From the NCBI GenBank assembly GCA_016841445.1, contig JAENZD010000001.1:744001-808000 (forward strand): a stretch of 64,000 bases of DNA, given 5' to 3'. A program made the position numbers and the translations under genes. Below are positions 969 to 24,947 of the stretch, piece after piece. This DNA is from Anaerolineaceae bacterium. Its GTDB lineage: Bacteria; Chloroflexota; Anaerolineae; Anaerolineales; Anaerolineaceae. Each line of letters begins with the position of its first letter. Positions within the stretch are counted from its first letter, which is position 1. Below the pieces are notes generated by a model. That model made no database searches, was not told the origin of the DNA, and saw only the letters and a program-made list of their open reading frames with translations.

Positions 969-2193
969 TTTCCACCTCTTCTGATAATTTAATTTCGGAT
1001 TTATCTGGACACTTCTCCGATATTTCTTGAATAGATCTTCCCGATGCCGGATGCCGAAAATCAGGGGCAATTTCTGAAAGCGGTTCAGCAATGTACCGAT
1101 ATCTTTCTATGTCCGGATCAGGGATGCTTATTGAGTGATATTTAAAAACATGTCCATCATAAGTCAGGATATCCAAATCGAGAGAAACTTTTCGTTTATT
1201 GCCCGGCAAGCGTTTGAAATTTTGTTCAATTGTTTTTAATTGTTTTATTAATTTAGGAAAGGTGTTAGCGGTTTCGATTTCAATAATTTGATTTAGAAAA
1301 TCCGCTGATTTCTCTCCAGCTTTTACATCTTTCGTTAGATAAATACTCGATAACCGGCGGACTTTGAACATGGCAGAAATTTGTTCGAGCGCAAGGACGA
1401 GGTTCTCCTGGGGATTCAAATTGGATCCCATGCTGATAAATACGCTGATATGTTTCTGCGGTTGATATCGGCGTTTATAGAAACCGAATAAACACCCTAG
1501 AAGGATAAATAAACTTAACAACTGGGGAATATCGATCATTGCGATTAATATTTTTTGCTCAATAAAAGCCCGGGTGAAAATTGTGATCAAACTGATGCCA
1601 GCTATGGTACTTAAGAATAAAAGGCCACTCTGGAAATACCCGGTCTGTTTTAATTGTGATGTTTTGAAGAAAAACCAAATCAACAAACCTATTCCCAGGA
1701 GTAAACCATAAATTTGAACTGGATGACGGTTTGTACCCCATAAAAGGATACCCCATGGAAGTTGGGTTGGCAGGCCAAATTGATCCCCGTTAGCTAGATT
1801 TGCTAGATGCAGACCACCGAACAAGAATATGATCAAAGGGGTGAGCGTATCCAGTGTTGGCCATAAAGGCAGATGGTTTCTCTGGGCGGTGATCAAAGCT
1901 GTGAGAACACCTGTTAGTAATCCAAAACTGGTATTCAACATTGTGGGGGATAAAGTAAAAATACTGAGGGGCCTGGCCAGAAAGGTTTCAGGATTCTGTA
2001 AGAAAAATCCGATCCTAGCACCTATGACACCAACCAGTAATCCGAGCAGGATACTGTTTTCTAAGACATCACCATTAGTTCCTAATGATTTTGCAAATTT
2101 ACCAGTGATCCATAGGCCAACCCAAATGCTGAGTATCAGGATCAAACCTGCAGCCTGTACCGCAAGTGGACCGATTTCAATAATTGGAAACAT
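958..2193 (-). CDS. folK: Fusion of Lgt-like membrane domain with HPPK (FolK)
   Basis: This 411-residue protein has two parts. Residues 1–240 are a polytopic membrane domain resembling prolipoprotein diacylglyceryl transferase: GARIGFF (58–64), ANLANGDQFGLPT (131–143), HPVQIYGLLLG (157–167) and a final helix pair. Residues 249–395 are 6-hydroxymethyl-7,8-dihydropterin pyrophosphokinase: ISMGSNLNPQEN, SLDLDILTYDG with catalytic DLD, and IAEPLSEIAPDFRHPASG. HPPK looks intact and would make the pyrophosphorylated pterin for folate synthesis at the inner membrane face. The Lgt part looks degenerate: by eye the positions of E. coli His103 and Arg143 carry Phe/Ser and His. A membrane-anchor role is my inference. 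It sits 13 nt after the thioredoxin gene in one operon. Confidence 0.85.
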   Translation of the reverse strand: MFPIIEIGPLAVQAAGLILILSIWVGLWITGKFAKSLGTNGDVLENSILLGLLVGVIGARIGFFLQNPETFLARPLSIFTLSPTMLNTSFGLLTGVLTALITAQRNHLPLWPTLDTLTPLIIFLFGGLHLANLANGDQFGLPTQLPWGILLWGTNRHPVQIYGLLLGIGLLIWFFFKTSQLKQTGYFQSGLLFLSTIAGISLITIFTRAFIEQKILIAMIDIPQLLSLFILLGCLFGFYKRRYQPQKHISVFISMGSNLNPQENLVLALEQISAMFKVRRLSSIYLTKDVKAGEKSADFLNQIIEIETANTFPKLIKQLKTIEQNFKRLPGNKRKVSLDLDILTYDGHVFKYHSISIPDPDIERYRYIAEPLSEIAPDFRHPASGRSIQEISEKCPDKSEIKLSEEVENGS

Positions 2194-4958: not shown

Positions 4959-5426
4959 ATGAAAGTAGCTGTTTCTTCAGATCACGCTGGTTTTCCACTC
5001 AAACAAACAGTGATTGATGCATTGGAAGCGTTAGGACATACACCGATTGATTTAGGAACCGACTCACTCGAGAGTGTTGATTATCCAGATTTCGCTGAGA
5101 AGGCAGGGCAGGCGATTGTGGATGGACGCTGTGAACGCGCAGTTGTTATTTGCGGTTCTGGCGTTGGTGCCTGTATCGCTGGAAATAAGATGGTGGGTGT
5201 CTATGCTTGCTTATGTCATGATACATATTCTGCTGCACAGGGTGTAGAACATGACCAGATGAACATGCTCTGCCTGGGCGCACGTATCATCGGGTCCGAA
5301 CTTGCAAAAGAGATCGTTAAAGCCTTTGTAGCTGCTCAACCCTCAACAGACCCACGTCACCTGCGCCGAGTAGGAAAAATCAGGAAAATTGAAAATCGAG
5401 AATTGAAAGGTCCTTTAAATGAGTAG
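4959..5426 (+). CDS. rpiB: Ribose-5-phosphate isomerase B
   Basis: This 155-residue RpiB/LacAB family isomerase interconverts ribose-5-P and ribulose-5-P. Diagnostic segments are VSSDHAGFPLK near the N-terminus, CGSGVGACIAGNK (the phosphate/active-site loop) and the conserved NMLCLGARIIG. It lies 37 nt after transketolase, and its last 8 nt overlap the tal–pgi start, so the three genes are probably one transcript. RpiB members can also act on other aldose phosphates, but the transketolase/transaldolase context supports the pentose phosphate role. Confidence 0.95.
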   Translation: MKVAVSSDHAGFPLKQTVIDALEALGHTPIDLGTDSLESVDYPDFAEKAGQAIVDGRCERAVVICGSGVGACIAGNKMVGVYACLCHDTYSAAQGVEHDQMNMLCLGARIIGSELAKEIVKAFVAAQPSTDPRHLRRVGKIRKIENRELKGPLNE

Positions 5427-8193
5427 CGCTATTAAACTAAAATTATTGGGTCAATCTGTTTGGTACGACAATGTTAGCCGATCCTTGATCAAAGATGGAT
5501 CTTTTAAACGAATGATCGAGTGCCGCGAAATTTACGGGGTAACATCAAACCCATCAATTTTTATGAAGGCTATTACAACAACAAATGATTATGATGCAGA
5601 TATCCAAACCCTGACCTGGGCAGGATTGAAACCATTAGGTGTTTTTTACAAATTGGCCATCCGGGATATTCAAGACGTTGCAGATCTTTTCCGCCCGTAT
5701 TATGATGCCAGCAAGGGAACGGATGGCTTTGTATGTTTAGAAGTCAACCCGGACCTGGCGCATGATACTCAGGGGACAATCGATGAGGCTAAATGGTTGT
5801 GGTCAGAAGTGGACCGGCCGAATTTAATGGTAAAAATTCCCGGTACGAAGGCTGGACTTCCAGCGATCACAGAAGCGATTGCATCCGGAATCAATGTCAA
5901 TGTGACTTTGATATTCTCGAGGCAGCGCTATAAAGAGGTTATGAAAGCATATCTCGATGGTATCCAGAAACGGGTGGAAGCGGGTAAAGATGTCGGCCAA
6001 ATTGCTTCTGTTGCCTCATTCTTCGTGTCAAGGTTAGAATCTATTGCTGATGATCACTTGAACAAGCTCATTGATAATGGTGGGAAAGATGCTAAGAAAG
6101 CCAAACAAATCCTGGGTAAGATTGCTGTTGCTAATACCCGGCTAGCTTACAAAGCCTATGAGGAATTTTTCGGAAGCGAACAGTATAGAGCCCTTGCTAA
6201 ATCTGGTGCACAGAAACAAAGACCGCTCTGGGCTTCAACCGGCACTAAAGATCCAAGCTATGATGATATCAAATATGTGAAAGAGCTTGTAGCTGAAAAT
6301 ACCATCAACACGTTACCGCCCGACACATTTGAAAAATATCTTGACCATGGCGAACCCTCGATAACAATCTATGATAATTTAGCTCAAGCTGAAAGGGAGA
6401 TTGAACAACTTGAAGCGCTTGGGATTTCGTTGGATGACCTGACTCAAACATTAGAAGATCAGGGTGTGGAAAAATTCTCTGATGCTTTCCATAAATTGCT
6501 TTCTGCCATTCAGGACCACCAGGAGAAATTCCTGATGGGCATGGATGCGTTAAAAGAAGCGATGAAGGATCAAGTAAAAGAATTTGAAGCGGAAAAGGCG
6601 GTTTCGCGCATGTTCCGGAATGATCCGACCCTTTGGACGGATGCACCTGAGGATAAAAAAGTCATCCAAACAAGATTAGGATGGTTAAACCTCCCGTATG
6701 AAAGTGAAGCATTGATCTCTGAATTGACCCAGTTTGCTGACTCATGCAAGGCGGATGGAATCGAGCAGGTCTTACTGCTGGGAATGGGTGGTTCTTCGCT
6801 GGCACCGGAAACCCTGCAGACAGTTTTTCGAGACGCTGTTAATGGGATGTCCTTAAAGATCCTTGATTCGACTGTCCCTGGACAGGTTAAAGAAGCAGAA
6901 TCCTGGGTCGACTACAAGAGAACCCTGTTCATCGTCGCCAGCAAATCGGGGACAACTTCGGAAACGATCTCAATGTTCCAGTACTTCTGGGCAAAATCTA
7001 AACCAATTTTGGGAGATGAACGGCCAGATCATTTTATCGCTATCACGGATCCCGGCAGCAAACTGGCAGTACTTGGAAAAACATCAGGTTTCCGAGCTGT
7101 ATTCACAGCAAATCCAAACGTTGGCGGAAGATATTCTGTGCTCAGCCATTTTGGCCTTGTCCCAGCGGCATTGATGGGAATTGACCTTAAATACTTATTG
7201 AACAGAGCTCAAAACACACAAGACAGGTGTTCCAAACCTGGTGAAATCAATCTGAATGCAGGTGCATTACTGGGAATTATGCTGGGTTTAGCGGGAGCAA
7301 AAGGTCAGGATAAATTAACCATTATTGCAGACCCAACGCTTGAACCTATGAGTGCCTGGTTGGAGCAATTGTTAGCTGAGAGCAGTGGAAAAGACGGGCA
7401 CGGTATTGTCCCTGTCGCAGAAGAGCCAATGGTTGATGTCCACATCTATCAGAAAGACAGGTTGTTTGCCTATCTTCGGGATTCTGGTGGGCTTGATTCG
7501 TTTGTTGATGATCTTCGCAGCGCTGGCCATCCGGTCGTGATCCTGAATATTGAAGTTCTATATGATCTGGGCTCACAATTTTATCTCTGGGAAATTGCTG
7601 TCGCACTGGCCTGCAGCATCCTGGGTGTGAATGCATTCGATCAACCAAATGTCCAGGACAGTAAGGACCGGACGAAAAACAAGATTTCTCATTTTATTGA
7701 GAAGGGGCATCTGGAAGAATATCGACCTATTTGGGAAAAAGACCATCACCAGGTGTTTGGGCATGCCTTTGACGGGATAGAAGACTGCGCTACTCTTTCT
7801 GAGGTACTCGGCCGGTTTACTTCACTGAGTGAACCTGGAGATTACATAGCGATCAATGCCTACCTCCCGCGTAATGATGAGACGGTCACGAGCTTATCGA
7901 TCCTCAGAAAACACATTTTGGAAACAACAAAACGGGCTACAACATTGGGTTTTGGACCCCGGTTCCTGCATTCAACCGGTCAACTTCACAAAGGCGGTGC
8001 CAATAATGGTCTGTTCATCCAGATAACGCAGGATGATTCAACCGATATTGATATCCCAGGACAAGGTTTTTCCTTTGGTGTGTTGGCAAGGGCGCAGGCT
8101 CAGGGTGACCTGGATGCCTTACTGGCTAAAGATCGTCGTGCAATCAGGTTTCACCTCAAAGCAGACGATACGTTGGATATTTTGAGAAAATAA
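5419..8193 (+). CDS. tal-pgi: Bifunctional transaldolase / glucose-6-phosphate isomerase
   Basis: This 924-residue fusion joins two sugar-phosphate enzymes. Residues 1–370 are transaldolase: GVTSNPSIFMKA, the Schiff-base lysine 139 in LMVKIPGT, and ASVASFFVSRLE. From about residue 385 onward it is a Pgi/SIS-type isomerase: LLLGMGGSSLAPETL, VASKSGTTSETISMF and GGRYSVLSHFGLVPAAL. The arrangement is known from other bacteria and couples the oxidative or non-oxidative pentose pathway to glycolysis. The start ATG follows AAAGGT and overlaps rpiB. A hairpin with a T-rich tail at 8221–8257 ends the unit. A second, unrelated cupin-type PGI occurs at 44438–45013. Confidence 0.93.
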   Translation: MSSAIKLKLLGQSVWYDNVSRSLIKDGSFKRMIECREIYGVTSNPSIFMKAITTTNDYDADIQTLTWAGLKPLGVFYKLAIRDIQDVADLFRPYYDASKGTDGFVCLEVNPDLAHDTQGTIDEAKWLWSEVDRPNLMVKIPGTKAGLPAITEAIASGINVNVTLIFSRQRYKEVMKAYLDGIQKRVEAGKDVGQIASVASFFVSRLESIADDHLNKLIDNGGKDAKKAKQILGKIAVANTRLAYKAYEEFFGSEQYRALAKSGAQKQRPLWASTGTKDPSYDDIKYVKELVAENTINTLPPDTFEKYLDHGEPSITIYDNLAQAEREIEQLEALGISLDDLTQTLEDQGVEKFSDAFHKLLSAIQDHQEKFLMGMDALKEAMKDQVKEFEAEKAVSRMFRNDPTLWTDAPEDKKVIQTRLGWLNLPYESEALISELTQFADSCKADGIEQVLLLGMGGSSLAPETLQTVFRDAVNGMSLKILDSTVPGQVKEAESWVDYKRTLFIVASKSGTTSETISMFQYFWAKSKPILGDERPDHFIAITDPGSKLAVLGKTSGFRAVFTANPNVGGRYSVLSHFGLVPAALMGIDLKYLLNRAQNTQDRCSKPGEINLNAGALLGIMLGLAGAKGQDKLTIIADPTLEPMSAWLEQLLAESSGKDGHGIVPVAEEPMVDVHIYQKDRLFAYLRDSGGLDSFVDDLRSAGHPVVILNIEVLYDLGSQFYLWEIAVALACSILGVNAFDQPNVQDSKDRTKNKISHFIEKGHLEEYRPIWEKDHHQVFGHAFDGIEDCATLSEVLGRFTSLSEPGDYIAINAYLPRNDETVTSLSILRKHILETTKRATTLGFGPRFLHSTGQLHKGGANNGLFIQITQDDSTDIDIPGQGFSFGVLARAQAQGDLDALLAKDRRAIRFHLKADDTLDILRK

Positions 8194-11223: not shown

Positions 11224-12198
11224 ATGAAGAAGCTAACGAATGAAAGAAAAGGTTTCCAACCGATCCTGGGGACAGCCTTAGGGATCCTGTTTGTTTCTAC
11301 AGCGTCGATATTTATTCGGTTCGCACAGGCAGAGGCATCCTCATTGGTGATTGCAGCATCCAGGTTATTGTTAGCAAGCCTGGTCCTTGTTCCGATTGCC
11401 TGGTTGAAATATCGCCATGAGTGGCGAAGTCTATCATCGAAAGACATCTTGAAGGGAGGCCTCTCCGGGCTTTTTCTTGCAATCCATTTTGCTGTCTGGA
11501 TCACTTCACTCCAGCTAACTTCAGTTGCAAGCTCAGTGGTGCTGGTGACAACTACGCCGCTCTGGGTAGCGCTGCTTTCCCCTGTTTTTCTCAAAGAATC
11601 GATACGGAAATGGGTCATTGTTGGTTTGATTGTATCCATTACAGGCGGGGTGATAGTTGGCTTTGGGCAAGCGTGCAGCTTTACTTCATCGGGTATGGTT
11701 TGTGAGGAACAAATCTTCACTGGAAGTACTATGCTTGGAAATTTTCTGGCACTCGTTGGCGCATGGATGGCGGCCGGTTATTTATTGATTGGGCGCCAGC
11801 TTCGCAAAACGATGAGTACTGTTTCTTACACCGCGTTGGTTTATGGGATTGCGGCAGTGATCTTGCTTGTGGTTGTCCTTTTTCGATCGGAACCAGTCTT
11901 TAGCTATTCAAAACAGACATATCTATGGCTGCTGGCATTGGGCATCTTTCCACAGCTCTTAGGCCATTCTTTATTCAATTGGGCGTTAAAGTATATTTCC
12001 GCTGCTTATGTTTCATTAACCTTCTTGGGGGAATCCATCGGTACCATCATCCTGGCGCTGATCTTCTTAAAAGAGGTGCCCACACTGCTCGAAGGCGTGG
12101 GTGCTGTCTTGATCTTGATGGGTATTGTGGTTGGTTCTATTCGTAAAACTGGAGAGATTAATGGGGAGGAGTCTCACCTTCCATCTGTGCCAGGATAG
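11224..12198 (+). CDS. EamA/DMT-family permease
   Basis: This 324-residue integral membrane protein has about ten hydrophobic helices in two EamA repeats, each beginning after a charged stretch. The first repeat has FVSTASIFIRFAQAEASSLVIAA and the second LGNFLALVGAWMAAGYLLIGRQL, typical of drug/metabolite transporters. Substrate is unknown. The second repeat carries the usual SLTFLGESIGTIILALIFLKEVP. I prefer ATG 11224; a TTG frame extension to 11188 would run through the promoter. Its 3' end overlaps the convergent malQ gene by 41 bp. Confidence 0.85.
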   Translation: MKKLTNERKGFQPILGTALGILFVSTASIFIRFAQAEASSLVIAASRLLLASLVLVPIAWLKYRHEWRSLSSKDILKGGLSGLFLAIHFAVWITSLQLTSVASSVVLVTTTPLWVALLSPVFLKESIRKWVIVGLIVSITGGVIVGFGQACSFTSSGMVCEEQIFTGSTMLGNFLALVGAWMAAGYLLIGRQLRKTMSTVSYTALVYGIAAVILLVVVLFRSEPVFSYSKQTYLWLLALGIFPQLLGHSLFNWALKYISAAYVSLTFLGESIGTIILALIFLKEVPTLLEGVGAVLILMGIVVGSIRKTGEINGEESHLPSVPG

Positions 12199-13717
12199 CC
12201 TCGTGGATAGCTTCCTTAGCTTTTTGGGGCAAACGGCCATAAAGATAATTGGTTTCGTATAGTCGACTTACAAGGCTTTCATTAATCGCATCTGGATGGA
12301 TCCGCCAATCCCAGTTACCTGAAGGTGTACCCGGGTAGTTCATCCGTGCCCATTCCCCCAAACCAAGGAAATCCTGCATTGGTGCCAGGACCCAATCGGC
12401 AGTTGAACGCCATAAAACACGGATCATTGACCATGAAATATCCTCACCGGATCGCGCAAGGTAGCGGCGGCAGAGATCCTTTTCTCGTTCAGGTGCAGCA
12501 TCATACCAACCGCGGGTTGTATTATTATCGTGTGTCCCAGTATACGCCACACATTTTTCGGGATAGTTGTGGGGGAGGAAGTCATCATCGGGATCGGCTG
12601 CAAAAGCAAATTGTAAGATCTTCATTCCCGGCAGTTGGAAATCATCTCGCATCTCAATCACTGCATCGGTAATAACCCCCAAATCTTCAGCAATTATAGG
12701 AAGTTCTCCTAAACGCTCTTTGACGGCCTTGAAGAAATCCTGTCCTGGTCCTTTGACCCATTTTCCTTCTTCGGCAGTCTTATTGCCGTATGGGATTTCC
12801 CAGTAGGCTTCAAATCCACGGAAGTGATCCAATCGGACAAAGTCGACCCGGTTCAAGACAGCTTGTATCCGTTTGATCCACCATTCGTAACCGTTTTCTT
12901 GGTGGGTGTTCCAATTATAAAGAGGATTTCCCCAAAGCTGCCCGGTTTCAGAAAAGTAATCAGGTGGTACGCCGGCGACTACTTCAGGAAGCCCATCCTT
13001 ATTAAGGTAGAAGAGCTCTTTGTTCACCCATACGTCTGCGCTGTCATAGGCAACAAAAATGGGAATATCACCAATTATCCGAATTCCTTTATTATGTGCA
13101 TAATCCCGCACGGACTGCCACTGATGGCGAAATAGGAACTGCATGTATTTTTGAAATTCAATTACTTCAGCGAATTTCTCTTTGAACGTTTCCAAAGTTT
13201 CAGGGTTGCGCTTGCGAAAGGTTTCTGGCCATTGGCTCCAAGCCACATTGCCATGTTCCTGTTTTAAAGCCATAAATGTCCCAAATGATTCCAACCACTC
13301 TGCCTCCTGATCTTGGAATATCTCAAAATCGGCAATCATGCTTTTATTTGACCCCCGTTTGAAGTGTTTATATGACCGGTTCAGGAATTTGATTTTCCAA
13401 TCTATAACCGGACCGTAATTCACCCTTTCATTGGGAAAGTCGGGGCGATCAAAAAGATCTGCCTTGGTTAGAAGACCTTGATCCAGGAGCATCGTTGCGC
13501 TTATCAGGTAGGGATTGCCTGCAAATGCTGAGAAGCATTGATACGGAGAATCTCCATAGCCTGTTGGACCCAGGGGAAGCACCTGCCAAAACTGCGTTCC
13601 GGTCCGATCCAGAAAATCAATCCAGCGGTATGCTTCAGGACCGAGATCTCCGATGCCATCCGGCCCGGGCAGACTGGTTGGATGAAGTAAAATCCCAGAA
13701 GCTCGATTTTGTTCCAT
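12158..13717 (-). CDS. malQ: 4-alpha-glucanotransferase (amylomaltase, GH77)
   Basis: This 519-residue enzyme disproportionates maltodextrins. GH77 features are clear: SGILLHPTSLPGPDGIGDLG at the N-terminus, FWQVLPLGPTGYGDSPYQ, IIGDIPIFVAYDSADVW, VRLDHFRGFEAYWEIP with the nucleophile Asp, IAEDLGVIT with the acid/base Glu, and YTGTHDNNTTRGWY. Length is standard. It follows glgA by 16 nt behind a good AAGGAG site and is the last gene of the glycogen operon. No terminator is visible before the convergent overlap with the DMT gene. Confidence 0.95.
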   Translation of the reverse strand: MEQNRASGILLHPTSLPGPDGIGDLGPEAYRWIDFLDRTGTQFWQVLPLGPTGYGDSPYQCFSAFAGNPYLISATMLLDQGLLTKADLFDRPDFPNERVNYGPVIDWKIKFLNRSYKHFKRGSNKSMIADFEIFQDQEAEWLESFGTFMALKQEHGNVAWSQWPETFRKRNPETLETFKEKFAEVIEFQKYMQFLFRHQWQSVRDYAHNKGIRIIGDIPIFVAYDSADVWVNKELFYLNKDGLPEVVAGVPPDYFSETGQLWGNPLYNWNTHQENGYEWWIKRIQAVLNRVDFVRLDHFRGFEAYWEIPYGNKTAEEGKWVKGPGQDFFKAVKERLGELPIIAEDLGVITDAVIEMRDDFQLPGMKILQFAFAADPDDDFLPHNYPEKCVAYTGTHDNNTTRGWYDAAPEREKDLCRRYLARSGEDISWSMIRVLWRSTADWVLAPMQDFLGLGEWARMNYPGTPSGNWDWRIHPDAINESLVSRLYETNYLYGRLPQKAKEAIHEAILAQMEGETPPH

Positions 13718-13733: not shown

Positions 13734-15197
13734 TTAAATTTTTCTTCCTGTAAGTGCTTTATAAACTTCTATATAATCCTGGGCTGATTTTTCCCATGAA
13801 AAATCTATCTTCATTCCATTTATCTGCAATTGCTGCCAAAAATCAGGCTTATGAAAATGGGAAAGAGCTCTTTGTAGGGTACTGGCAAAGACGGATGGGT
13901 AAGGTTTTTCAAATAAATAGCCTGTGCTGCCATTAATTTTATGGGACACGTGTTTGATGGTATCAACCAATCCGCCCGTTGCCCTGGCAACAGGGATGCA
14001 GCCGTAGCGCATCGATATCATCTGTGAAAGGCCGCAGGGTTCGTAGCGGGAGGGCATCAAAAAGATATCAGCTCCCGCATAGAGTTGGTGGGCTAATGAA
14101 TTATCGAAACTAATGACACTTCGAACACGATCAGGGTATTGATTTTCGAGGGCTTTTGCCATATCTTCAATGGAGGGTGTTCCCGTTCCTAAAATGATCG
14201 CTTGCCAGGAAAGGTCTTTAAGATAGTTCAATCCCCTCAGCGCAATATCAATCCCTTTCTGAGGATCCATCCTGCTGACTATGGTCAATAATGGAATATC
14301 ATCCCTTTTTTCTAATTTAAATTGGTGTTGGAGGAAGCGTTTGTTCACCAACCGCTGCGATAAAGTGTTTTTTGAGAACTGCTGAGCAATTAAGGGATCT
14401 GTTTCTGGATCCCATTTTTCAGTATCCAACCCGTTTAGGATTCCGTCCAGAACTTTCCTGCGGGTTTTTAGAAAATCAACAAGACCGCATCCAAATTCAG
14501 GAGTAAGGATCTCCTTGGCGTAATGGGGGGAAACAGCAATAATCTGATCTGCATACCGTAACCCTAATGGTAGTGGAGAGTGGCGTGCCCATTCCGGGAG
14601 AGATTCTGTTTTTGCAGGAGGAAGACAATAGTCTGACAGTGCTTGCTGAACACCAAACCCCATGTACGGCAGGTTATGAAGCGTCAGGATGGATTTTGTT
14701 TTTTCCAGGAAAGAAACATTTTTTGAGAGTTTTTTTAATGCATAAATAGCTGTCGCAGTATGCCAATCATTTGCCTGTAAGATATCCACACGCCAATTTA
14801 GAAAGTCAGCTAATCCGAGTGCAGCGAGTGAAAAAAAGACAAATTTATAACCGTCGAGTATCGGTTCCCGCGAATACACCGGTGATTTTTCATCGATTGG
14901 ATCCCCATCTAAAAAATAGACAGGTAAGCCTGAATTTTCACTGCAATAAACCTTGCATTCAATCACACCCTGGCAGCTTTTCACCCCAAATTTGCCCAGA
15001 AGCTCAGGCTTAAAACCCTTTTGCTTAATTGCGAAGTGGAATGGTAAGACCAGCCTGATATCGACTATTTCCCCAGTTTGTATTTTCGAGGAAATTTTAT
15101 GGATGGTTTCTGGTAAAGCGCCAGCGACATCTCCCAACCCACCAATTTTAATAAACGGTTCAGCCTCTGCTGCAAGGAACAGGACATTAAGGGTCAT
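13734..15197 (-). CDS. glgA: Glycogen synthase (GT5)
   Basis: This 487-residue ADP/UDP-glucose-dependent glucosyltransferase extends alpha-1,4-glucan. The GT5 signature KIGGLGDVAGALPE (17–30) binds the donor phosphate, followed by LQANDWHTA, TLHNLPYMG, GILNGLDTEKWDPETD, SRMDPQKGIDI and the C-terminal donor loop PSRYEPCGLSQMISMRYG…RATGGLVDT. All key elements are present. It sits between the amidohydrolase–CYTH gene (17 nt) and malQ (16 nt). The ribosome site is weak. Confidence 0.95.
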   Translation of the reverse strand: MTLNVLFLAAEAEPFIKIGGLGDVAGALPETIHKISSKIQTGEIVDIRLVLPFHFAIKQKGFKPELLGKFGVKSCQGVIECKVYCSENSGLPVYFLDGDPIDEKSPVYSREPILDGYKFVFFSLAALGLADFLNWRVDILQANDWHTATAIYALKKLSKNVSFLEKTKSILTLHNLPYMGFGVQQALSDYCLPPAKTESLPEWARHSPLPLGLRYADQIIAVSPHYAKEILTPEFGCGLVDFLKTRRKVLDGILNGLDTEKWDPETDPLIAQQFSKNTLSQRLVNKRFLQHQFKLEKRDDIPLLTIVSRMDPQKGIDIALRGLNYLKDLSWQAIILGTGTPSIEDMAKALENQYPDRVRSVISFDNSLAHQLYAGADIFLMPSRYEPCGLSQMISMRYGCIPVARATGGLVDTIKHVSHKINGSTGYLFEKPYPSVFASTLQRALSHFHKPDFWQQLQINGMKIDFSWEKSAQDYIEVYKALTGRKI

Positions 15198-15214: not shown

Positions 15215-17203
15215 TTATTTATTTCCGGTGAAATTCTCAACAATTTCGGTGTAATCTTCGGTCTCAGCTTTTTCGGATGAAGCGCCCAGGTACTCAATCA
15301 GTTCCGCAATCATGCGGGATTTTCGTTCAGCATCTTCTCTACTCCAGGTTCGGCTTTTCACCTCCAGGAAGTGTCCCAGATCTGGATTGACCAAAGTATC
15401 AATGTTGATGTAAAAATCAACGCCTTTATATTGGATCTTGAAGCGAAGGCGGTCCTTCTCAATGTCCAGTTCTCGGGATGGATCGAAATATTCCCGATAG
15501 AAGCGCAGTGAATGGGTTGCCGGGGCATAATACCGGCTGCGTGAAAGCATCACGTCCTGGTCAAACTGTTCTTCTCGGGATACTCCAACGAGTGTCAATC
15601 TGCCACGCACAAACTCAGTCTCATGCGACTCATTTATGAACTCATCTTCCCTGTAACGTAGGCGTCCCTGATCTTCATCATCAAAGAAGAAGTAGGTGTC
15701 GTATTCATGGTAGTGGCGTGTATACGTGATTTTAATTTCTTCTTTATCAAGAGCCGTGATAATGGCATCCGGGTCTGTAATATGTACTTTCGCCTGGACT
15801 TCAAAACTTTCTTCCTCCATTGCACCGCCGATAGCGATCAGTTTCGAAAGCACAGATTGTTCTCTTGCGATAAGGAATTTATCGATTTTTTGTGCGTAGG
15901 TTTGTGCCTGTTCGATCAATTCCTCTTCATTAAGGGTGAGAAGCTCCGAATCGCGCATTAACCACTGGCCGTTGACCATCATGTGGCTGATGTCGGTTGA
16001 TTTTGCAGCATAGATAACCTGTGAGTAAATCCCATTCGGATCGCGTTGGAAATTCGGCGAATTATGGATCTTGTTGATCCCTAGCAAGATAATATCTGCC
16101 CGTTTTCCTGGGACGATCGAGCCAGTAAGATGATCTAAATGAACAGCTTTTGCGCCCATACTGGTAGCCATCGCCAGTGTTTGCCTGGCAGGAAGAGCCG
16201 TGGGATTGCCAGAGGCGGCTTTTGCCACCATAGAGGCTAGCCGAATCTCCTCGATCATATCCAGGTCATTGTTGGAAGCTGGACCATCGGTGCCAATACC
16301 AACATTAACCTTCAGCTCAAGCATGCGTGTTATATTCGCAAAACCTGATGCCAGTTTAAGATTGGATGAGGGGTTGTGTGCAACCCCTGTTCCGGCGTGC
16401 TGAAAGGTCCGCATTTCGCCTTCATCGATATGCACACAGTGGGCAGCGATCACTTTTGCGTCAAAAATGCCCTGCTTTTTCAGGTAAGGTACAACCGGCA
16501 TGCCAAATTCTTTACGAACATTTTCAACTTCACCTGCTGTTTCTGAAATGTGAGTGTGTATCGGAATGTCATATTTAAGCGCTAACGCTGTACAAGCCTG
16601 CCAGATCTCGTCTGTACAGGTATAAATCGCATGCGGGGCAACGGATGGGACGATAAGCGGATGGCCCTTCCAGGTTTGTATAAAGTCTTCTGCAACGGCA
16701 AGGGATTCTTCGTAATAGGTCGCGTCTGGTGTAGGGAATTTTAATATGGATTGGCTGCAAATGGCTCGCAGACCTGCTTCAGCAGTCGCTTCAGCGATAT
16801 CAGACTCATAGTAATACATATCAACAAATGTTGTCACACCACTGCGGATTGATTCGGCACAGGCTAATTTTGTTCCAAGGCGGACAAATTCTGGTGAGAC
16901 GAACTCTCGCTCGACTGGCATCATGTAACCCATTAACCATACATCCAGGCGAAGGTCATCTGCCAGACCTCTAAGAAGGGTCATCGGGACATGTGTATGG
17001 GCATTGATCAAACCCGGCAGCAGGATTTTCATCTGACAATCGAGAACTTCAGAAGCTTCATACTCTTCTAGAATTTTCTTTTCCTTACCGACTGCCAGGA
17101 TGCTGTCACCTTTAACAGCTACTGCACCGGGATTATAGATGTTATAGTCATCATCCATGGTAAGGATGATTGCATTCTTAAATATGACATCAGAGTGTTT
17201 CAT
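15215..17203 (-). CDS. Amidohydrolase (SsnA/MtaD type) fused to a CYTH domain
   Basis: This 662-residue protein has two domains. Residues 1–440 form a metal-dependent amidohydrolase of the ATZ/TRZ–SAH/MTA deaminase group: HTH at 69–71, PHAIY near 190, IHTHISE (His216, His218), His255, and GTDGPASNN with Asp306. Such enzymes deaminate adenosine derivatives or related heterocycles. Residues 466–650 form a CYTH-like tunnel domain: EVQAKV (468–473, ExQxK instead of ExExK), YDTYFFFDDEDQGRLRYRED and FLEVKSRTWSREDAERKSR. CYTH proteins hydrolyse triphosphates. The fusion is uncommon and its purpose unknown. Neighbours are cinA (11 nt upstream) and glgA. Confidence 0.85.
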   Translation of the reverse strand: MKHSDVIFKNAIILTMDDDYNIYNPGAVAVKGDSILAVGKEKKILEEYEASEVLDCQMKILLPGLINAHTHVPMTLLRGLADDLRLDVWLMGYMMPVEREFVSPEFVRLGTKLACAESIRSGVTTFVDMYYYESDIAEATAEAGLRAICSQSILKFPTPDATYYEESLAVAEDFIQTWKGHPLIVPSVAPHAIYTCTDEIWQACTALALKYDIPIHTHISETAGEVENVRKEFGMPVVPYLKKQGIFDAKVIAAHCVHIDEGEMRTFQHAGTGVAHNPSSNLKLASGFANITRMLELKVNVGIGTDGPASNNDLDMIEEIRLASMVAKAASGNPTALPARQTLAMATSMGAKAVHLDHLTGSIVPGKRADIILLGINKIHNSPNFQRDPNGIYSQVIYAAKSTDISHMMVNGQWLMRDSELLTLNEEELIEQAQTYAQKIDKFLIAREQSVLSKLIAIGGAMEEESFEVQAKVHITDPDAIITALDKEEIKITYTRHYHEYDTYFFFDDEDQGRLRYREDEFINESHETEFVRGRLTLVGVSREEQFDQDVMLSRSRYYAPATHSLRFYREYFDPSRELDIEKDRLRFKIQYKGVDFYINIDTLVNPDLGHFLEVKSRTWSREDAERKSRMIAELIEYLGASSEKAETEDYTEIVENFTGNK

Positions 17204-17214
17204 TATTCTCCAGT

Positions 17215-18384
17215 CTACTTATTACGATTAACTTCAATAAGGTGCCTTCTTAATAAATCGAACCCGACGTTTCCCGCCCATAAGGGCACATAGTCACGTG
17301 GCCCGCCATAGTAACGGGTTGTAGTAATGACACTATCGCCATCAACAAAAACAAAATGCACACCGGGTTGCTTGTTTGGGGTAAAAGCCGCACCGAAAAG
17401 GATGTGATTAGGAAGTTCCTGATGAATTCTCATCATTTTATGTTCTAAATGATTGAGATCTTCAGGCTCTTCTAAAATTGCATTCGATTGGATGCCTTCA
17501 AATCCATGTTTTTCCATTCGATGAACCATCGTACCCAAAAAACCAAATTCAACAAGGGTTAGTTTTCGCTGATTTTCCTTAAGCAATTCAATAATCTTAC
17601 TTTCGAGTGTCTCTTCATCCCGACCGTAGATTACATCACCCAGGCGAGTTTCTAATTCTTCAATGATCGGAAGGGATAAGGCACGTGCTTCTTCTTCCGA
17701 TGCTGCTTTTGCTGTTACCCGTATATCGACCTGTCCAGGGTGGGCAAGCAATCCTACAGTGGGATTTGCCAGTTCTTCAAGATCAGCAATTTTTTCATCA
17801 ATGGCTGATTCGCCCATGGAGGAGGCATGCAGGACTGTGGCTTTAATGATCTGGGTTTTTAAGGTGTACCGTTCATGAAGATATGGAATAATGTATTGGT
17901 GCAAAACATGTTCCATCTCTCTTGGGACACCTGGCAGAGAAACCACACAAGACGATTCCTGTTCAACAATGAAACAGGGTGCTGTTCCAACCTCATTTTC
18001 GATGGGGATTGCTGACTCTGGAATGTACGCTTGCCGTTTGTTGTTCGCGGTAGGCACTCGGTCAAATCGTTTAAATCGATCTTTGATCTGTTCCCATAGT
18101 TCTGGTTGGAAAACCAAATCCTGATCGACAGCATCAGCAACAGCCTGGCGCGTAGGATCATCGATCGTTGGGCCTAATCCACCCGTAGTAATGATGATAT
18201 CTGCTCTTTTGAAAGCTTCTTTGATGGTAGAAGCTATTCTGCGAGGATTATCGCCAATTGTTGTGATCCGATATATATCAATGCCGTGATCCCGTAATGT
18301 GCGTGCGATATAGGTTGAATTGGTGTCTGGAATTTCTCCCAATAATAACTCTGTTCCGATAGTAATAATTTCTAATGTAGGCAT
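17215..18384 (-). CDS. cinA: CinA-family protein with degenerate C-terminal amidase domain
   Basis: This 389-residue protein starts with a complete MoCF/CinA N-terminal domain: EIITIGTELLLGEIPDTNS, ITTGGLGPTIDDPTR, and SLPGVPREME. That domain hydrolyses ADP-ribose and related nucleotides in characterised CinA proteins. The C-terminal part has the length of the NMN-amidase (PncC) domain, but the usual ESxTGG active-site motif reads EFGFLG (279–284) and the GxxGP segment is not recognisable. The amidase activity is therefore probably lost. A strong AGGAGG site precedes ATG. It is the first gene of the cinA–amidohydrolase–glgA–malQ run. Confidence 0.85.
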   Translation of the reverse strand: MPTLEIITIGTELLLGEIPDTNSTYIARTLRDHGIDIYRITTIGDNPRRIASTIKEAFKRADIIITTGGLGPTIDDPTRQAVADAVDQDLVFQPELWEQIKDRFKRFDRVPTANNKRQAYIPESAIPIENEVGTAPCFIVEQESSCVVSLPGVPREMEHVLHQYIIPYLHERYTLKTQIIKATVLHASSMGESAIDEKIADLEELANPTVGLLAHPGQVDIRVTAKAASEEEARALSLPIIEELETRLGDVIYGRDEETLESKIIELLKENQRKLTLVEFGFLGTMVHRMEKHGFEGIQSNAILEEPEDLNHLEHKMMRIHQELPNHILFGAAFTPNKQPGVHFVFVDGDSVITTTRYYGGPRDYVPLWAGNVGFDLLRRHLIEVNRNK

Positions 18385-23436: not shown

Positions 23437-24621
23437 TTAGATATTGATAATCTCATAGCATTGATGAAGTAAGGCACGATCATGTTGGGCACAATCAATA
23501 GCCAAATCGTGGAGCGTTCTCTCTGCAGTTCCAGTTTTTTGCAGGACAATAGTTAATAATCTATTGTCAAAAATTTTCTCCAACAGAATCAAAGAATGCT
23601 TGCGGTTTACAAGAAAACTGGCAAATAATTCTGATGGGTCACAGGTGCCATGATATTTTTCGGTTTTTTTATTATCTTCGATTTTTGACGAGAATTGTTG
23701 GGGACCTTGGCTCTCAATTAGGCTTTGCCACAAGGGGAGGTATACCTGTCTTTCCTTAAGGGCGAATGAACCAATAATGTCACAAAGATTTAGGTCATCA
23801 TGGGTGAATGTTCCATGCCACTTATCCTCTGGAACCATGCGAATCCAGGTGTCTAGCACGGCTGGGGTTGAACGTAAAATCGCTAACAAAATGCTTGGAT
23901 CTGAATTTAATTTTGGCGGCACCGGATCTGCCAGAAGTTTCTTTAAGAATGGTTGAACATCTGATAAGGGTCCGTGTGGCTGTCCCGGATCATGAATATC
24001 TGGGTCAACCCAGAACCTGGAATATCCAAAGGCTTCCATTGGTTGAATATCATGGTTGAAATTGTCACCTACCATCACAACTGGAGCTTCAGGCCAGCCT
24101 AAGCGTCCGAGCGCTTCAGCATAATATGCCAGGTGAGGCTTGGTGAAATGGAAGTCATCAAAAGTTGTGAAGAAAACAAAGTCTTGCGGATCCAGCCCTG
24201 CCCAATTGATTCGGTGACGTGTTGCCATTGCCGGGAATAAAGGATCGGTTGTTATCGCTGATTGAATATTTTGAGAATGGCACCATTCGATCAATGGCTT
24301 TGCAGCGGGTTTTCGAGACACTAACCGCTCGAGTTTTGGGTATTCGACATTGTAGAAATCTTTGAGGAGGGTTTTACACGCATTCTCTGTTGTTCCCAGC
24401 GGTTTATAGAAATGCTCAGCAAAGACATCTTTCAGAATCCTGCCCGGATCCTGGTTTTCAATCATTTTTTTAACTGCAAAGCGGACTTGCTGGATGATTT
24501 TCTCTTCCGGAGCCAGGAAAGAGAAGGTTTCCCCCAGCGCTTTAAAATAATAAGGAAGGAACGCAGCACCATGAGTTTGCAGCAGCGTATCGTCCAGATC
24601 AAACAGAACGGTCAGGGGCAT
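23437..24621 (-). CDS. HAD-superfamily hydrolase fused to a DinB-like domain
   Basis: This 394-residue protein begins with a HAD phosphatase: nucleophile motif DLDDT (Asp8, Asp10), a four-helix cap, TTDPLFPAM, a lysine near FTKPH, and VMVGDNFNHDIQ (acidic motif). From about residue 235 to the end it resembles a DinB/DUF664 four-helix domain: LDTWIRMVPEDKW, HDDLNLCDIIGSFALKE, and a C-terminal HDRALLHQ helix with the typical HD..HL spacing. DinB domains bind a metal and often act as thiol transferases. ATG 24621 shares one base with the TAA of the upstream gene, so translation is coupled. Substrate unknown. Confidence 0.75.
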   Translation of the reverse strand: MPLTVLFDLDDTLLQTHGAAFLPYYFKALGETFSFLAPEEKIIQQVRFAVKKMIENQDPGRILKDVFAEHFYKPLGTTENACKTLLKDFYNVEYPKLERLVSRKPAAKPLIEWCHSQNIQSAITTDPLFPAMATRHRINWAGLDPQDFVFFTTFDDFHFTKPHLAYYAEALGRLGWPEAPVVMVGDNFNHDIQPMEAFGYSRFWVDPDIHDPGQPHGPLSDVQPFLKKLLADPVPPKLNSDPSILLAILRSTPAVLDTWIRMVPEDKWHGTFTHDDLNLCDIIGSFALKERQVYLPLWQSLIESQGPQQFSSKIEDNKKTEKYHGTCDPSELFASFLVNRKHSLILLEKIFDNRLLTIVLQKTGTAERTLHDLAIDCAQHDRALLHQCYEIINI

Positions 24622-24947
24622 TAAGTTTCTTTGAATAAGTCCAGGATGGGGTGGCACTCACTGCAACCGGTGTAAGGATTTTCAACATCCTGGTGTGTTT
24701 TGGTGCAGTACGCGCTGATCTTAACTTTTTGGTTAAGTCCCAAAAAGCCTTTGGAAATTTCCCCGGATAAAACCATATGTGGACAACCGTTTGCCCTGAC
24801 GATATCCGGTACTGGACAAGTCTTGCAGTGTTTGATTTCCCATGGGGGATTTGAATCCACGATCAACCGGCATTCTTCATGGTGCCGTCCGCGGTGGTAA
24901 TCGCCATAAAAATATGGGCATTCTTTTCCTGTGGTTGGTACTCTCAC
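24621..24947 (-). CDS. Small eight-cysteine protein of unknown function
   Basis: This 108-residue protein has cysteines at 10, 26, 41, 44, 55, 81, 95 and 98, including CKTC and CSEC pairs plus several histidines (GRHHEEC). This pattern suggests two structural zinc sites or an Fe–S cluster. There is no signal peptide. I do not recognise a named family. The likely start is GTG 24947; the ribosome site is weak (GAG only). Its stop overlaps the start of the HAD–DinB gene (TAATG), so the two are likely partners. Confidence 0.7.
   Translation of the reverse strand: MRVPTTGKECPYFYGDYHRGRHHEECRLIVDSNPPWEIKHCKTCPVPDIVRANGCPHMVLSGEISKGFLGLNQKVKISAYCTKTHQDVENPYTGCSECHPILDLFKET

Follow-up and report, generated by a model that had tools for sequence, protein, structure and literature searches.

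A putative nucleoside deaminase fused to a CYTH-like tunnel domain with altered motifs in Chloroflexota

Results

A single gene joins an amidohydrolase to a C-terminal tunnel domain

The window analyzed here is a 64,000-nt stretch of the genome of an Anaerolineaceae bacterium (assembly GCA_016841445.1, contig JAENZD010000001.1, positions 744,001 to 808,000); the genome totals 3.35 Mb in 8 contigs. On its minus strand lies a gene encoding a protein whose N-terminal part is an amidohydrolase and whose C-terminal part has the predicted fold of the CYTH proteins (Table 1). The gene begins 11 bases past cinA and is followed by glgA and then by malQ. A sequence-only reading of the window had described an amidohydrolase–CYTH fusion situated between cinA and glgA. 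Its placement agrees with the positions of the open reading frames and with their Pfam families, and the fusion itself is borne out by one intact frame of 662 codons and by a survey of 165 loci with a match to the C-terminal domain (a set in which many species are represented twice): 159 contain the whole fusion and six are severed by a contig end. Since, in addition, the frames of the listed members of the class are all open over 650 amino acids or more, the fusion is not an artefact of assembly.

Table 1. Position of the fusion gene, its parts and its neighbors in the window
Feature	Position	Strand	Basis
Whole fusion gene	15215..17203	-	ORF and translation; 662 aa and stop, single frame, no internal stops
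Deaminase domain, residues 1-442	15878..17203	-	Pfam PF01979, fold matches, invariant residues; substrate putative
Linker, residues 443-461	15821..15877	-	Alignment of 75 proteins
CYTH-like triphosphate-tunnel domain, residues 462-640, eight predicted strands	15284..15820	-	AlphaFold, Foldseek, VIA-align, hhalign and controls
E468-V-Q470-A-K472 (ExQxK in place of hallmark ExExK)	15788..15802	-	E, Q and K invariant, 136/136
R555-S-R557 (arginines in the strand bearing ExE in canonical CYTH)	15533..15541	-	Invariant, 136/136
E614-V-K616 (ExK in place of last ExE)	15356..15364	-	Invariant, 136/136
cinA-like gene	17215..18384	-	Pfam MoCF_biosynth and CinA_KH
glgA (starch/glycogen synthase), downstream	13734..15197	-	Pfam Glyco_transf_5
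malQ (4-alpha-glucanotransferase), past glgA	12158..13717	-	Pfam Glyco_hydro_77

The N-terminal half retains the catalytic residues of a deaminase

Residues 60-414 match the Pfam family Amidohydro_1 with an E value of 2e-69. The top NCBIfam models are PRK09045 (TRZ/ATZ hydrolase, 445.6 bits), PRK06038 (413 bits) and PRK07228 (5'-deoxyadenosine deaminase, 362.6 bits). None of the three models attains its cut-off; the equivalog cut-offs are 540 for PRK09045 and 522 for PRK07228, and PRK15493 likewise falls short (289.8 against 779). An initial description of this half as an SsnA/MtaD-like deaminase stands as regards the deaminase and is refined as regards SsnA, whose model scores 200 bits, also short of its cut-off and far below the three top models. 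The AlphaFold model of the full protein has a predicted local distance difference test score (pLDDT) of 89.9 and a predicted template modeling score (pTM) of 0.85. In this model, the deaminase half superimposes on 4dzh, 4dyk, 4f0r and 4gbd with Z scores of 57.7-59.0 and root-mean-square deviations (rmsd) of 1.2-1.5 over 433-437 residues; with 4f0s and 3lnp added, the Z scores span 57.5-59.0.

Conservation was assessed by aligning 136 distinct full-length fusion proteins, a set that includes 14 from beyond the class. Residues H69, H71, E98, H191, H218, E221, H255, D306 and S310 are identical in all 136, and the catalytic positions line up with those of 4f0r and 4gbd. We take the invariant residues to be the metal ligands, the base and the ribose contact, as in TM0936-type enzymes. 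The pattern typical of this amidohydrolase subtype (HxH, H, E, H, D) is present throughout (H69, H71, H218, E221, H255 and D306), and the suggestion that the set of metal ligands is complete thus holds across the family. Altogether, sequence and predicted structure suggest that residues 1-442 are probably a deaminase of the 5'-methylthioadenosine (MTA)/S-adenosylhomocysteine (SAH)/adenosine type with intact catalytic residues and a putative substrate. In the linker that follows, R447, E448, S450, K454 and L455 are invariant and G459 and G460 are conserved in at least 90% of an alignment of 75 proteins (the window's and 74 of 77 available references).

The C-terminal half is predicted to fold as a CYTH-like tunnel

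Taken singly, the C-terminal half of the window's protein has no match in Pfam, even at E 10, and no credible match among the sequences of the PDB (best E 1.7, to T-cell receptor chains), nor does a profile of this half find one there. Pfam CYTH matches four of 26 homologous C-terminal halves (the window's and 25 others, drawn from 30 references including the window's own gene) at E up to 10, the best at 1.6e-6. A genome search with PF01928 placed the fusions in G037, G046, G047 and G049, four relatives with frames of 660-718 amino acids, above the gathering score of 23.2 bits and that of G018 below it. When hhalign was used to compare the fused family with a set of 28 canonical CYTH proteins, residues 467-659 aligned with a score of 42.5 and an E value of 7.6e-6 (1.7e-7 for the global alignment). 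The controls stayed well below this: the highest score among 50 column shuffles was 23.2, and the reversed profile reached 13.1. The canonical set represents 28 of 30 loci of the same clade, two having been missed by phmmer with the host's own CYTH protein as query, and is therefore skewed to relatives of that protein. The latter is encoded separately from the fusion, on contig C6 (locus L001, positions 1306-1920, minus strand), near a gene that reads as NUDIX-like, and carries both ExExK and ExE.

In the AlphaFold model of the full protein, this part consists of eight strands and some helices, and the domain modeled alone (residues 456-662, pLDDT 87.1, pTM 0.84) has a very similar set. The best structural matches are 2een (PH1819; Z 18.4, rmsd 2.4, 170 aligned residues) and 7ns9 (SaTTM; Z 17.3, rmsd 2.3, 169 aligned residues), ahead of 1yem (Z 16.9), 3n0z (Z 16.2) and then plant TTM1, ThTPase, AtTTM3 and Mediator subunits; Foldseek E values start from 2.8e-8. 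The sequence-only reading had postulated a CYTH-like tunnel and had undertaken to abandon it should no tunnel be predicted in residues 466–650. The postulate is supported by the eight-stranded barrel that AlphaFold gives, by Z scores of 17-18 and by a profile match exceeding those of shuffled controls. Judging from profiles and predicted structure, the C-terminal domain is a member of the CYTH-like fold superfamily that lies, by the features compared below, outside the catalytic CYTH class.

Metal-site motifs of the tunnel are replaced throughout the family

Within this domain, E468, Q470, K472, R516, R518, R555, R557, K583, R585, R587, N600, D602, E614, K616 and R618 are invariant in all 136 proteins. 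Positions 533 and 535 are both arginine in 123, the remaining 13 having K with T or N. In the hhalign alignment, E468-x-Q470-x-K472 corresponds to ExExK (E7xE9xK11 of the host's canonical paralogue), R516-x-R518 to the RxR of strand 3, K583-x-R585 to KxR and E614-x-K616 to the last ExE, in strand 8 (paralogue E136xE138). Thus, of the hallmarks of catalytic CYTH proteins, the strand-3 RxR is present in every member, whereas ExExK is replaced in every member by ExQxK, as had been read from the window, and the strand-8 ExE by ExK. The strand-5 ExE (canonical E84 and E86) falls on R555/R557, with a register uncertain by one position because of a one-residue alignment gap, and the lysine of the LTxK motif (paralogue K70) is replaced by I, L, V, T or M at position 539. 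In the canonical set, by comparison, the second E of ExExK is kept in 27 of 28 proteins (one gap), E84, E86 and K70 in all 28, and the last E (E138) in 27, with K in one.

Signatures of other CYTH groups were also sought. An HF motif and small substitutions are required in class IV adenylyl cyclases (PMC8233210). HF does not precede ExQxK in any of the 26 C-terminal sequences, as it does in the HFxxxxExExK of CyaB; nor is there a small residue at the first R of RxR or an A at the last E, R516 and K616 being invariant. At the position corresponding to the W/Y of the W/YxRxR motif of thiamine triphosphatases, the window has R514, a residue that differs among the members of the family (entropy of the position 2.18 bits).

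The replaced residues can be compared with those of characterized enzymes. SaTTM coordinates a single magnesium through E7 and E135. In the presence of calcium it binds two ions, by way of E5, E7 and E137, and the second ion activates water; it is metal 2 that the last glutamate of ExE touches (PMC8233210). In AtTTM3, changing Glu-2, Glu-4 or Glu-169 to Asp or Ala causes a strong loss of tripolyphosphate hydrolysis, and Glu-2 and Glu-4 belong to the acidic patch, as do the glutamates of ExExK (PMC4641920); the fusion family bears Gln and Lys rather than the Asp or Ala of these mutants. In the polyphosphate polymerase Vtc4, the acidic-patch positions (AtTTM3 Glu-2, Glu-4, Glu-90 and Glu-171) are basic (PMC4641920); the four places are occupied by E, Q, R and K in the fused family. 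With two metal-ligand glutamates replaced in every one of the 136 proteins, the sequence evidence favors binding over triphosphate hydrolysis. The sequence-only reading had suggested that the pairing could sense nucleotides or detoxify; none of the present results demonstrates detoxification.

Invariant residues cluster on one face of the strands

When the positions of the eight strands were divided by face, invariant residues made up 19 of the 45 on the motif-bearing side and none of the 41 on the opposite one. Faces were set from the motif residues, which makes this count partly circular. In a shuffle test that picks the best face of each strand every time, 6 of 100,000 shuffles were as clean as the observed pattern, in which all 19 invariant residues occupy one face of their strand. 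Among the conserved charged positions of the motif face, basic ones outnumber acidic ones by 12 to 6, whereas the canonical family has 7 basic and 8 acidic (seven strands counted). By the TTM motifs it carries, the invariant face would line the tunnel, and its conservation suggests that the tunnel still binds something anionic.

The fusion is widespread in Chloroflexota

A domain search for the spread of the fusion, proposed in the sequence-only reading, found the C-terminal domain to be common in the phylum. With the C-terminal half as query, a match was obtained in 57 of 61 nearby genomes, the host's own included. Profile searches found the domain in 162 of 248 genomes of the class, a count that includes weak or double matches (G080, G137, G160, G166, G176, G185, G208 and G288), and in 83 of 350 genomes of the phylum, 37 of these 83 being outside the class, in five families. 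No stand-alone copy of the tunnel domain was seen among the 165 loci. Within the nearby set, the domain is missing from G031 (complete, single contig) and G016 (97% complete), as well as from G003 (75% complete) and G005 (70% complete). Stop codons fall within the match in four of the 57 nearby genomes (G023, G034, G039 and G050); for G034 and G039 none appear in the profile searches, and we think that in these two the match overruns the end of the gene.

In a collection of 84,980 species, a relative is encoded in 564 of 589 pattern-matched stretches. The titles of the best 80 of these 564 name groups of Chloroflexota, except for one titled just "bacterium" (L137); they include Candidatus Aquidulcis, which we take to belong to this phylum. 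The closest-matching titled contigs among these 80 are from Anaerolineaceae, some of them Brevefilum. A mobile origin was considered and rejected: 72,556 plasmid records contain no match, and the 16 pattern matches in viral contigs include no relatives.

Linkage to glycogen genes is local

Gene neighborhoods were surveyed in the window and in 94 of 95 further loci (L072-L166, L166 being left out), with names other than cinA, glgA and malQ assigned by reading the sequences. The gene directly upstream belongs to the cinA cluster in 53 of 88 loci. The gene directly downstream belongs to the glgA cluster in 27 of 92 loci and resembles inositol monophosphatase in another 17. Outside the class, the 14 loci displayed have no cinA-, glgA- or inositol-monophosphatase-like gene directly adjacent; in seven of them (L156, L157, L158, L160, L162, L164 and L165) the fusion is directly followed by a coaE-like (dephospho-CoA kinase) gene of cluster 24. 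The placement of the fusion inside a glycogen operon is therefore correct for the window and does not extend to the family: given the frequency of glgA as next gene within the survey and its absence outside the class, the link to glycogen is local.

Three other genes of the window were noted. In the cinA-like protein, no match to the family of the CinA C-terminus (NMN deamidase) was obtained at E up to 0.001. Positions 5419-8193 (plus strand) encode a protein of 924 aa in which transaldolase is joined to phosphoglucose isomerase (Pfam TAL_FSA 1.6e-78, PGI 5.2e-17). Positions 23437-24657 (minus strand) encode a HAD-like hydrolase extended at its C-terminus by about 180 residues, in which Pfam has no match at E up to 0.001.

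Discussion

We propose that the fusion protein combines a deaminase of 5'-modified adenosine or adenosine with a CYTH-fold tunnel turned into a non-hydrolysing binding or regulatory module, an interpretation to which we assign a probability of about 0.5. In this scheme, the metal-dependent amidohydrolase would deaminate a 5'-modified adenosine (MTA, SAH or 5'-deoxyadenosine) or adenosine. The tunnel would grip a triphosphate-like polyanion, such as a nucleoside triphosphate (NTP), tripolyphosphate or polyphosphate, through R516, R518, K583, R585 and the extra arginines. It might hold one metal at E614 but would be unable to position the second, water-activating metal, leaving the ligand unhydrolysed. 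Binding of the ligand would then alter deaminase activity and couple the salvage of adenosine by-products to the nucleotide or phosphate state of the cell. The conserved linker and the pTM of the full-length model only hint at a fixed arrangement of the two halves. As to the main substrate, 5'-deoxyadenosine released by radical S-adenosylmethionine (SAM) reactions is our guess.

Several observations weigh against this proposal. Besides an SAH hydrolase, the host genome encodes MTAP and PNP (both above their cut-offs) and three proteins matching A_deaminase. It has three other amidohydrolases at E 1e-20 or better; the best NCBIfam model for amidohydrolase L278 is 5'-deoxyadenosine deaminase, below cut-off, which counts against the substrate guessed above, while amidohydrolase L279 scores above cut-off as an 8-oxoguanine deaminase. 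With SAH hydrolase, MTAP, PNP, A_deaminase and L278 present in the same genome, a unique need for the fusion deaminase is not evident, and the first four of these make it seem that neither SAH, MTA nor adenosine depends on the fusion enzyme alone. On the side of the tunnel, plant TTM1/2, which lack ExExK and ExE, are reported to act on pyrophosphate (PMC8233210), so that altered motifs do not prove inactivity. Furthermore, Med18 and Med20 keep the TTM fold with activity apparently lost (PMC4641920).

Some further ideas on the role of the deaminase were set aside. It does not seem to be the sole route for MTA, given MTAP and PNP in the host, nor the sole adenosine deaminase: A_deaminase is found in 67 of 83 genomes with the fusion compared to 153 of 267 others, which indicates that the fusion does not replace that enzyme. 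A third idea concerned a pathway in which SAH is converted to S-inosyl-homocysteine, for which an HxExK motif in SAH hydrolase is a marker (PMC10978960). The SAH hydrolase family PF05221 is matched in 342 of 350 genomes of the phylum and in 39 of 41 relatives. We examined 51 SAH hydrolase loci (29 the best-scoring of the phylum search, the rest from the search of relatives) in 49 genomes, 39 of which have the fusion domain: none carries the predicted HxExK, all having HxTxE or HxTxQ, and the idea lost weight.

What the tunnel does is the point on which the alternatives differ. The protein could be bifunctional, its CYTH domain hydrolysing a triphosphate (tripolyphosphate, thiamine triphosphate or NTP) at an atypical metal site, alongside deamination by the other half. 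The basic residues that grip the substrate are indeed invariant, as are D602 and E614, the glutamate of metal 1, and the activity reported for plant TTM1/2 sets a precedent; yet the universal ExQxK and ExK, the strand-5 arginines and the loss of the K70-equivalent lysine make this unlikely, the more so as 34 of 41 relatives have a Pfam CYTH match outside the fusion and thus usually possess a catalytic copy anyway. We give equally low credence to a tunnel serving as a structural or oligomerization domain without any small-molecule ligand, in the manner of Med18 and Med20. Mediator entries, some of them Med18/20, do appear high in the list of fold matches, below the CYTH proteins (Z 10.5-13.7), and these subunits are described as apparently inactive (PMC4641920), but a scaffold would be expected to conserve its outer surface, whereas here invariance is confined to one face of the strands.

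A far less probable alternative is that the C-terminal domain binds the deaminase's substrate or product, or a nucleic acid such as 5'-triphosphate RNA, and delivers it to the active site. RNA triphosphatases are among the members of the CYTH-like superfamily (PMC8233210), and the conserved face is strongly basic; on the other hand, MTA, SAH and adenosine have no phosphates, and among the recognized recurrent neighbors none suggests RNA. More speculative than the binding module proposed above, and in our opinion still doubtful, is its extension to the phylum as a whole, with the fusions forming a set of allosteric nucleoside deaminases in which a triphosphatase tunnel became a sensor of polyphosphate or NTP by exchange of metal-2 ligands for Q, R and K. 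The charge pattern of such a sensor may, just as tentatively, be seen as a partial parallel to the polyphosphate tunnel of Vtc4. If true, these enzymes would tie the removal of by-products of methylation and radical-SAM reactions to the phosphate or energy status of the cell.

Most studied CYTH tunnels are metal enzymes. If the water-activating metal site is truly lost, the fusion would represent a CYTH fold serving as a bacterial small-molecule sensor attached to an unrelated enzyme. It would offer a direct test of CYTH recognition with catalysis removed, as well as a lead on how Chloroflexota control the salvage of adenosine by-products. The fold and the enzyme family are both known; we could not find the pairing or the tunnel chemistry described in the open-access literature, which yielded no account of a CYTH fusion with an amidohydrolase or deaminase, nor of a triphosphate-tunnel pseudoenzyme (weak evidence of novelty, subscription papers and preprints being outside its scope). 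By title or beginning of abstract, none of the open-access papers found that mention both CYTH and Chloroflexi is about the fusion. Databases may already include the architecture, since Pfam CYTH exceeds its cut-off in the frames of four relatives.

Comparison with known systems

With CYTH proteins and triphosphate tunnel metalloenzymes (SaTTM, 7ns9; PH1819, 2een; YpCyaB, 3n0z; YgiF; AtTTM3) the fusion has in common the eight-stranded tunnel, RxR, KxR, the aspartate and the first glutamate of the last ExE. It differs from them by ExQxK, ExK, the strand-5 arginines, the absence of the strand-4 substrate lysine and the deaminase partner. Plant TTM1/TTM2 (7z67; fold Z 14.9) likewise join a CYTH domain without ExExK and ExE to another enzyme (PMC8233210). 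Their partner, however, is a kinase-type domain (PF00485, PMC8233210) and not a deaminase, and they keep W/YxRxR where position 514 of the fusion is variable. The two-domain YgiF/CHAD proteins also have their CYTH domain within a multidomain protein (PMC8233210), but their tunnel is N-terminal and catalytic, whereas that of the fusion is C-terminal and rewired. TTD14 was considered as an earlier example of a CYTH protein that binds GTP, and was dropped since GTP binding sits in its P-loop domain (PMC4624897).

Vtc4 (3g3r, 8i6v) provides a partial parallel for the charge exchange: it keeps the metal-1 site with a basic acidic patch (PMC4641920), and Q470, R555/R557 and K616 of the fusion stand at three of the four places. 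E468, at the fourth, is kept in the fusion, the fold match reaches just Z 8.8-9.0, and Pfam VTC is not among the 10 families matching any of the 26 members at E up to 10. In view of this weak similarity of fold, membership in the VTC family was rejected.

For the N-terminal half, the closest relatives are the MTA/SAH/adenosine deaminases of Chromobacterium (4f0r), Pseudomonas (4gbd, 4dyk) and Xanthomonas (4dzh) and TM0936 (1p1m, 1j6p); DadD of Methanocaldococcus is a related deaminase from the literature. The fusion shares the fold of the structurally characterized enzymes (Z 51-59, 32-38% identity), and its catalytic residues, invariant in its family, align with those of 4f0r and 4gbd. It departs from them in scoring below the equivalog cut-offs and in adding a C-terminal extension of about 220 residues.

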